From Goekera deserti (GTDB taxonomy: Bacteria; Actinomycetota; Actinomycetes; Mycobacteriales; Geodermatophilaceae), in assembly GCF_010685995.1 (NCBI RefSeq), contig NZ_JAAGWK010000008.1, positions 124,001-188,000 on the forward strand: a stretch of DNA of 64,000 nt, in the 5' to 3' direction. Both the position numbers and the translations under genes were made by a program. The notes beneath the pieces were generated by a model. That model saw only the letters and a list, made by a program, of their open reading frames with translations, searched no databases and was not told the origin of the DNA. Each line of letters begins with the position of its first letter. Position 1 is the first letter of the stretch. This document shows, piece after piece, positions 24,124 to 26,149 of the stretch.

Positions 24124-24331
24124 CCGCCGGGGTCGGCTCCGACCGCAGCGAGGCGGGTCCGGGTGGGACGGGGAGCACGCCGGCGCGGGCTCCCGCCCAG
24201 CGGTCGTGCGCCGCGTCATCCTCGGGCGGCGCGCAGGTGGCCTGGGGGAGCAGGCACCGGACACCCGGCACCGGGCTCGGGGCACACTGCTCCTGAGCGC
24301 GCCGGCCGCGCCCGGGAGGCGAGGAGACATC

Positions 24332-26149
24332 GTGGACCCGGCACCGTCGCTCGACCGGTTCGTCGCCGAGCAGCGGCGCCCGCTGCTGGCCACCGCGTAC
24401 CTGCTGACCGGTGCCGACGCCCCGGCCGCGGACCTGGTCACCCGGGCGCTGGTCTCGGCGCGTCCGGTGTGGCGGCGGCTGCCCCACGACGCGGACGCCG
24501 GCGCGCGCCGGGACGCCGCCCTCACCGGGCTGGTGCGGGCCCACCTCGGCCGGTGGGGCCGGTGGTCCCGCGGGGGCGGCACCGTGACCGGGGCCTCGGC
24601 GGCGCCGTGGTGGGTCGCCGAGGCCGACGCAGAGGCCGCCCACCGGCTGTTGGCCGCGCTGGACCGGCTGGAGGACCGGGCCCGCACCGCCGTGGTGCTC
24701 CGGCACCACGAGGGGCTCGCCGCGGCGGACGTCGGCCGGCTGCTGGGCGAGCCCGACCCCGCCGGCCTGCTGGCCGCAGCCGAACGCGAGCTCGCAGCCG
24801 AGGTGCCCGACCCGTCCGCGCTGGGCGCCCGGCTCGACGGCCTGGCCGCGCTCGGCGACCACAGCACGCTGGACGACGAGGCCGCCGTCAGCGGCGTGCG
24901 GGACCGGGTCGCCGGGCGCCGCCGGCGGGCCGTGGGCGTGGCGGCGGTCGCGGTGGCGCTGGTCGCCGGCGCCGTGCTCGCGCCGGACAGGCCGGCGACA
25001 CCGCAGGGCTCGTCCGTCGCCTCGGCCCCGCCGGCCGGCCCGCGACTGCCGGACTTCGGGGACCTGTACGGCGCGCCCACCCGCGGCTCGCTGGCCGACG
25101 ACCGGGCCTTCCTCGACGCCGTGCTCGCCCGCGAGCCGGGATCACCCGAGGAGAGCTCGGACCGGCGGGTGGTGTTCGCCGGCGACGCCGCCGGGCTGCG
25201 GTGGGTCCTGGTCGCAGCCCGGTCACCGGGCAGCGTGGAGAGCCGGCTGTTCACCGGCCCGGCCGGCACGCCGGCCGCGGACCTGGAGGTCGCCTCGATG
25301 TCGTCCTCCGCCACAGCAGACGGGGCACTGGGCCTGACCGCCGAGGCGGACGGCGCGCTGGCCGTCCTGGTGCTGGCCGGCCGGGACGACGAGATCGCGA
25401 TCAGCCCCGGCGTCGACGTGGCCCCGGACGGCACCGCGAGCCGCTCCTACCGGCCGGTGGAGACCAGCCGGGGCGTGGCCGCCACCCCCATCGTCCGGAC
25501 GACGGCCGCCGGGGTCCGGTTCACCGTGACCCGGGACGGCGTCACCTCGGAACCGCGGTTCGCCTCCTTCGGGTCCTGGTCCACGCCTGCACCGGCGCCA
25601 CCCCCGCCCCCGCCCCCGCGATCGGGCACCGTGGTCAGCGCGGACGCCGTGCACCACGTGGCCGACTCCGCCACCTCGGCCACCGGCTGGTCCGGCGACG
25701 ACGTCACGGTGACGGTGCTCGGCTCCGGGACGTTCGCCGCGGAGGGCGCCATGTCGGCGGAGGGCGTGGTCGTCGCCGTCACGCTGCCCAACGGAGCGGT
25801 GGTCACCGCGGCGGGCTGGGTCCGGGTCGAGGCGAACGGCAGCAGCCTGGCCTCGTGCGGCTCCGCGCTGCACCCGGCGGGCACCGACCTGGACACGCTC
25901 GTGGTCGCCGCCGGGTGCTCGCTGTACGACACGCAGTCCACGGCCGACCCGACACTGGTCGTGGTGGCCGCACCGGCGGGCACCCCCGACGCGACGCTGT
26001 CCGCCTCGACCGGCACCGTGCCCCCCGCCGTGCTGCCGCTGCCCGGCGGCTGGGGCGCGGTCGTGGACGACACCCGGTCGGTGGACCGGGTGGACGTCGG
26101 TGGCCAGGTGATCACGCTCGACCCGGGCGCCGACCCGCTGCAGATCTGA
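24332..26149 (+). CDS. membrane-anchored protein with sigma-factor-like N-terminal domain
   Basis: A 605-residue protein. Residues 1-165 look like a degenerate ECF sigma factor: LLATAYLLTGADAPAADLVTRAL resembles region 2, and LDRLEDRARTAVVLRHHEGLAAADVGRLLGEPDPAGLLAAAEREL resembles region 4. A basic RRRR stretch and a single transmembrane helix (about 197-217) follow, then ~390 probably extracytoplasmic residues with a proline run (PAPAPPPPPPP) and beta-rich sequence including two cysteines (LASCGSALH, AAGCSLYD). GAGGAG precedes the GTG. No database function comes to mind; DNA binding by the N-terminus is doubtful. A transmembrane anti-sigma-type sensor is one possibility. Confidence 0.6.
   Translation: MDPAPSLDRFVAEQRRPLLATAYLLTGADAPAADLVTRALVSARPVWRRLPHDADAGARRDAALTGLVRAHLGRWGRWSRGGGTVTGASAAPWWVAEADAEAAHRLLAALDRLEDRARTAVVLRHHEGLAAADVGRLLGEPDPAGLLAAAERELAAEVPDPSALGARLDGLAALGDHSTLDDEAAVSGVRDRVAGRRRRAVGVAAVAVALVAGAVLAPDRPATPQGSSVASAPPAGPRLPDFGDLYGAPTRGSLADDRAFLDAVLAREPGSPEESSDRRVVFAGDAAGLRWVLVAARSPGSVESRLFTGPAGTPAADLEVASMSSSATADGALGLTAEADGALAVLVLAGRDDEIAISPGVDVAPDGTASRSYRPVETSRGVAATPIVRTTAAGVRFTVTRDGVTSEPRFASFGSWSTPAPAPPPPPPPRSGTVVSADAVHHVADSATSATGWSGDDVTVTVLGSGTFAAEGAMSAEGVVVAVTLPNGAVVTAAGWVRVEANGSSLASCGSALHPAGTDLDTLVVAAGCSLYDTQSTADPTLVVVAAPAGTPDATLSASTGTVPPAVLPLPGGWGAVVDDTRSVDRVDVGGQVITLDPGADPLQI

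Follow-up and report, generated by a model that had tools for sequence, protein, structure and literature searches.

When the cytoplasmic half of a membrane protein is recognizable as an ECF sigma factor, does it still work as one? The question is raised by a gene of Goekera deserti at 24332..26149 (+ strand) of the window, by which we mean the whole stretch of 64,000 nucleotides of contig NZ_JAAGWK010000008.1 that was analyzed here. Sigma factors count as subunits for transcription, and PhyR is the best described sigma fold with other work. The initial annotation of this locus had left two readings side by side: a one-component design, in which a sigma-like domain carries its own transmembrane sensor, and a decayed sigma factor reused as an adaptor.

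Results

The reading frame 24332..26149 is real: it begins with a GTG start codon preceded by a ribosome-binding-site-like GGAGG/GAGGAG (24315..24326, +), the GAGGAG of which lies 5 nt upstream of the start; its GC3 is 0.96, with both halves alike, and full-length relatives and paralogs exist. The product (605 amino acids) consists of a pseudo-sigma half, a juxtamembrane segment, one membrane helix and an outer region. Residues 6–139 match the SigE-family sigma model TIGR02983 of NCBIfam (E=7.5e-17), with 61.7 bits that do not reach the curated family cut-off of 141.55, and matches to the same model were found in all 20 fused relatives scanned. Pfam detects region 4 weakly, below its cut-off (E=0.0038), and finds no region 2 match in the window protein. 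By the TIGR02983 match, the residue comparison described below, AlphaFold and Foldseek, residues 7–78 (24350..24565, +) form a sigma region 2-like helical domain of which the core is kept and region 2.3–2.4 is degenerate. In the alignment the following linker carries a Pro-Trp-Trp motif at residues 92–94 (24605..24613, +), which the window protein shares without exception with its ten Klenkia and Modestobacter relatives and which occurs in none of the intact sigmas. A sigma region 4-like domain (residues 97–154; 24620..24793, +) was assigned from Pfam, TIGR02983, AlphaFold and Foldseek, and its recognition helix (residues 143–154; 24758..24793, +) is degenerate, lacking the basic residues of intact sigmas in the residue comparison and the AlphaFold model.

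An AlphaFold model computed from 11 related sequences reaches a pLDDT of 90.4 and a pTM of 0.84 for residues 1–216, and a pLDDT of 79 for the whole protein. The nearest PDB structures found by Foldseek are ECF sigmas, with a probability of 1.00, but every E-value is 0.001 or higher. A sigma2–sigma4 fold is thus predicted in the N-terminal half, and the unrelated fold that the initial annotation had set as the alternative outcome of such a prediction was not seen; together with the TIGR02983 match, the model and the Foldseek search bear out its description of this half as ECF sigma-like, with region 2- and region 4-like parts. The model of residues 1–216 gives target TM-scores of 0.65–0.67 with RpoE–NepR, 0.61–0.68 with SigW–RsiW and 0.60 with CnrH–CnrY, and of 0.31–0.35 with the sigmas of Mycobacterium tuberculosis initiation complexes; two anti-sigma complexes, AlgU–MucA and Escherichia coli sigmaE–RseA, were not matched (TM 0.30–0.34). 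The sigma domains are therefore predicted to be arranged more as in some anti-sigma-bound sigmas than as in initiation complexes, with the sigma part closed upon a two-helix anti-sigma-like segment of its own chain. This closed arrangement is an AlphaFold prediction from the 11 related sequences, and AlphaFold may favor compact forms.

The segment in question occupies residues 161–174 and 182–198 (24812..24925, +), where the model places helices at 161–174 and 182–215, and from the model and the alignment with the split partner described below we regard it as a candidate anti-sigma segment in cis. About 45 residues long, it aligns with the cytoplasmic N-terminus of a protein that is separate in relatives. 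The model has the layout of class II (CnrY-like) anti-sigma factors, a short two-helix cytoplasmic segment followed by one membrane helix. The CnrY model PF17524 matches only one of 20 fused members, weakly (E=0.025), and none of five split-partner N-termini; these five matched no anti-sigma family of Pfam at all, nor did Pfam find a zinc finger or any other recognized anti-sigma domain in the fused proteins. The single membrane helix lies at about residues 199–216 (24926..24979, +), with RRRR on its cytoplasmic side, as judged from the sequence and the AlphaFold model. One helix had been annotated from the start, but as following the sigma part directly, and it is this adjacency that has to be corrected, since the two-helix segment intervenes.

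The outer domain, annotated initially at ~390 residues, was found to measure about 388. Residues 246–605 (25067..26146, +), assigned to it from AlphaFold and profile searches, comprise two beta-rich halves; the region has no significant Pfam or NCBIfam match, and Foldseek found no confident PDB match for its fold. That the two halves are an internal repeat is not supported, the hhalign probability being 18%. The poly-proline linker of the initial annotation exists as seven prolines at residues 423–429 (25598..25618, +), but it separates the two outer halves instead of adjoining the membrane, and the alignment shows that it is not conserved in relatives. The only two cysteines of the window protein, Cys509 and Cys529 (25856..25918, +), are invariant in the alignment of fused proteins and nearly invariant across fused and split outer regions, and probably form a disulfide.

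Among relatives in the Geodermatophilaceae, a soil-dwelling actinobacterial family, the outer region occurs in two forms. The split form consists of the gene of an intact SigE-family sigma and, behind it, the gene of a single-pass partner protein with the same outer region; in all 19 split pairs the two genes overlap or adjoin, since the partner gene can begin a few bases away from the stop codon of the sigma gene, mostly overlapping it by 4 bases. The other form is a single fused gene. Against a model built here from the split sigmas, split sigmas score 195–275 bits and fused ones 17–127 bits, a gap that is partly expected from the way in which the model was made. The genome of the window carries eight outer-region copies, five of them fused (contigs C22, C9, C45, C32 and C2) and three split (C52, C6 and C7). 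A search of contigs with a single protein returned nothing, and the named Klenkia and Modestobacter loci were obtained when an alignment was used instead; the profile search for the same fusion that the initial annotation had proposed as a check finds it in close relatives as well as in paralogs. At the level of sequence comparison, these relationships show the window gene to be a fusion of a translationally coupled sigma/partner pair into one reading frame. Full-length matches to the outer-region profile were confined to the Geodermatophilaceae among the 150 genomes of the order that were searched, and two other families gave weak partial matches. In another family of the order, at L103:1212-3859, a SigE-type sigma gene overlaps a frame that weakly matches the first outer half, so the sigma/partner pair may predate the Geodermatophilaceae.

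A single origin for all fused proteins was rejected, as the tree of 60 outer regions requires five changes for the fused state, or four when L077, which lacks a sigma part, is excluded. The AU test (p=0.097) does not reject one common origin of the three main clades of fused genes. Since L058 and L071/L087 sit inside split clades, at least two or three fusions are likely, though the number is not firm. Several other arrangements were observed. L077:3111-4553 encodes an outer-region protein with a membrane helix and no sigma part in its own frame; at L087:2496-6381 an intact sigma/partner pair is immediately preceded by a strongly degenerate fused gene that points the same way; and at L088:2874-7527 (genome G043) several outer-region genes follow one another, their outer regions shortened. 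The parts of the neighborhoods that were read revealed no conserved partner gene beside the fused genes.

What the sigma part has lost emerges when 37 fused proteins are set against 19 intact sigmas. The region 2.4 Trp falls from 100% of intact to 0% of fused sequences, and an Arg within that helix drops from 100% to 19%; in region 4.2, a Cys falls from 100% to 5% and a Ser from 100% to 0%. An Arg of the recognition helix declines from 100% to 16%. The net charge of the recognition segment changes from +3.42 to -0.14 (Mann–Whitney p=2e-9, for sequences that are not independent), and deletions often accompany the loss of region 2.4/4.2 residues. The positions kept at 90–100% in fused proteins are mostly hydrophobic or small core ones. 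The region 2.2 Gln drops from 100% to 35%, and at the position after it a Thr (89% of intact sigmas) gives way to Arg (84% of fused proteins). In sigma70 the region 2.2 helix faces the polymerase clamp; since it is this helix that is altered, binding of the fused sigma parts to core RNA polymerase may be lost as well.

In spite of these losses the pseudo-sigma domain is not drifting freely, because dN/dS (YN00) is 0.15–0.21 in the unsaturated pairs, several saturated pairs giving no value, and because in the clade of the window gene conservation is higher in the sigma part than outside the membrane: 73% in the region 2.1–2.2 part against 41–44% in the outer region for the window protein and L029, and 95% against 64–77% for L039 and L044. 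In this clade the pseudo-sigma has also acquired newly fixed residues, such as the Pro-Trp-Trp at 92–94 and an Arg in region 2.2. The reverse is seen in the clade L053–L057, where it is the pseudo-sigma that is the less conserved of the two parts, and in four fused copies (L076, L080, L081 and L083) only profile-detectable fragments of the sigma are left. Judged from residues and substitution rates, the comparison shows loss of the promoter-reading residues and purifying selection on the hydrophobic core in fused forms.

Upstream sequences also differ between the two forms. The pattern GTCAAC-N-CGT[GC], drawn up by eye from some of the same sequences in which it was counted, precedes 6 of 25 intact sigma genes and none of 38 fused genes (background 0.3%), and would fit intact sigmas that regulate themselves, with the site lost after fusion. 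A candidate ECF-type promoter, TGTCAACC-N-CGTG(T), lies before some intact SigE-family pairs, upstream of the sigma genes in L033, L034 and L066–L069, and one further exact match was found in the genome of the window at G000:C32:500769-500799. A different pattern, [GCT]TT[CG]ACT, chosen after inspection of the sequences, coincides with the start codon or shortly precedes it in 14 of the 17 fused genes in the clade to which the window gene belongs (L029, L031, L036–L044 and L046–L048); the window gene is without it, and it occurs in 0.3% of random 120-nt stretches, in none of 12 other fused genes and in none of 17 intact ones.

Discussion

We think it probable that the window protein is a membrane-anchored pseudo-sigma that acts as an adaptor or decoy instead of a working sigma factor. 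The second suggestion of the initial annotation, a decayed sigma reused as an adaptor, is thereby the reading that fits best, because the DNA-reading residues are lost while the core is kept under purifying selection. A sigma/partner pair was joined into one reading frame, and the sigma part shed its promoter-reading residues and kept its core. The sigma part is predicted to close on the juxtamembrane segment, which in a chain of its own would play the role of anti-sigma factor. We propose that the outer region would sense an envelope signal, that this signal would alter the exposure of the cytoplasmic pseudo-sigma/anti-sigma module, and that the module would then act on another protein rather than direct RNA polymerase. 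A broader proposal, which we hold as tentative and somewhat doubtful, is that such proteins make up a new class of membrane receptor, whose cytoplasmic output is a sigma without use of DNA or RNA polymerase, a self-contained adaptor that arose repeatedly by fusion of a sigma with its partner.

The sigma part could instead be a structural cap or a slowly fading remnant, needed only for folding, insertion or stability of an outer region that does the work. The retained residues are indeed mainly those of the core, four copies are reduced to fragments, and the greater conservation of the outer region in L053–L057 points the same way; but a dN/dS well below 1, and in the window's own clade a sigma part that is better conserved than the outer region and has newly fixed Pro-Trp-Trp and Arg residues, make this explanation unlikely. 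A partner switch of the PhyR type, in which a signal would make the pseudo-sigma bind the anti-sigma segment belonging to an intact SigE-family pair of the same cell and so release that sigma, draws on the presence of PhyR–NepR among the structural matches, on the Pfam model of the PhyR sigma-like domain, which finds 3 of the 20 members scanned (best E=7e-4), and on the coexistence of both forms in many genomes, including that of the window, where an intact SigE-family sigma is present alongside fused genes. Against it, seven genomes with fused genes and a listed completeness of 99–100% (G013, G021, G030, G041, G042, G043 and G053) have no SigE-family sigma above the family cut-off, a count restricted to that family (TIGR02983). 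An intact SigE-family sigma is thus not generally required, switching was rejected as a general mechanism, and we give this explanation very little weight.

The same genomes could be turned in favor of a working one-component sigma like ECF52 or IutY, whose N-terminal domain would be freed by proteolysis and direct RNA polymerase to promoters, since the fused copies could have replaced the intact sigma there. Sigma homology and fold, and an architecture shared with known membrane-fused ECF sigmas (PMC8999054, PMC5826349), speak for it too. However, the residues with which regions 2.4 and 4.2 read promoters, and which intact relatives have without exception, are lost across the 37 fused proteins compared, often with deletions, and Pfam matches no recognized anti-sigma domain such as a zinc finger; because of the lost residues this first suggestion of the initial annotation is disfavored, and we consider it improbable. 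Nor would the design be as unusual as was thought, since membrane-fused ECF sigmas are already on record, namely ECF48, ECF52, ECF53, some ECF36 members and IutY (PMC8999054). Other sigma matches in long frames of the window's genome resembled ordinary ECF sigmas and so supplied no control for membrane-fused sigmas that work.

The adaptor reading, if confirmed, would reveal how a sigma/partner gene pair can become an adaptor bound to the membrane, related genomes containing both intact pairs and copies at several degrees of decay. It would also be a warning for annotation, as homology alone would label such proteins sigma factors. The intact pairs, in which a SigE-family sigma is accompanied by a single-pass partner without a recognized anti-sigma domain, are candidates for an undescribed type of anti-sigma factor. 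No membrane-anchored, DNA-blind sigma was found in the open-licence literature searched.

Several known systems share features with the window protein. The family of origin is that of the SigE-type ECF sigmas (TIGR02983), whose above-cut-off members adjoin a homologous membrane partner in relatives, and from which the window protein differs by its score, far under the cut-off, and by the absence of DNA-reading residues. In layout the nearest known system is ECF52 (SCO4117 of Streptomyces coelicolor), also a single actinobacterial protein with an ECF sigma domain, a membrane helix and a proline-rich outer extension, the sigma domain of which is reported to modulate development (PMC5826349). ECF52 also contains a zinc finger and a carbohydrate-binding domain; in the window protein there is no cysteine before residue 509 and no Pfam match for a zinc finger between the sigma part and the membrane, no Pfam or NCBIfam match for a carbohydrate-binding domain in the outer region, and the DNA-reading residues are lost. 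IutY of Pseudomonas putida (ECF243) likewise joins a sigma to its own membrane-bound anti-sigma factor (PMC8999054), but it is active after proteolysis and belongs to iron-carrier signalling, whereas the sigma part of the window protein can apparently no longer read promoters and is followed by nothing that Pfam or NCBIfam matches to a FecR-like anti-sigma part. The short two-helix cytoplasmic segment recalls the class II anti-sigma factor CnrY, CnrH–CnrY being one of the structural matches (PMC7406223); here, however, segment and sigma fold share one polypeptide, and the split partners tested have no sequence match to CnrY. PhyR carries a receiver domain and is not known to be anchored in the membrane (PMC5830050). 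It binds NepR, whereas the fused proteins are anchored in the membrane, have no receiver domain match in Pfam and do not always coexist with an intact SigE-family sigma. PhyR nevertheless uses a sigma fold outside transcription and lies in the structural and Pfam neighborhood of the fused proteins, in which a sigma fold without DNA reading, as in PhyR-type mimics, appears from residues and model to be present, and it is the nearest functional precedent.
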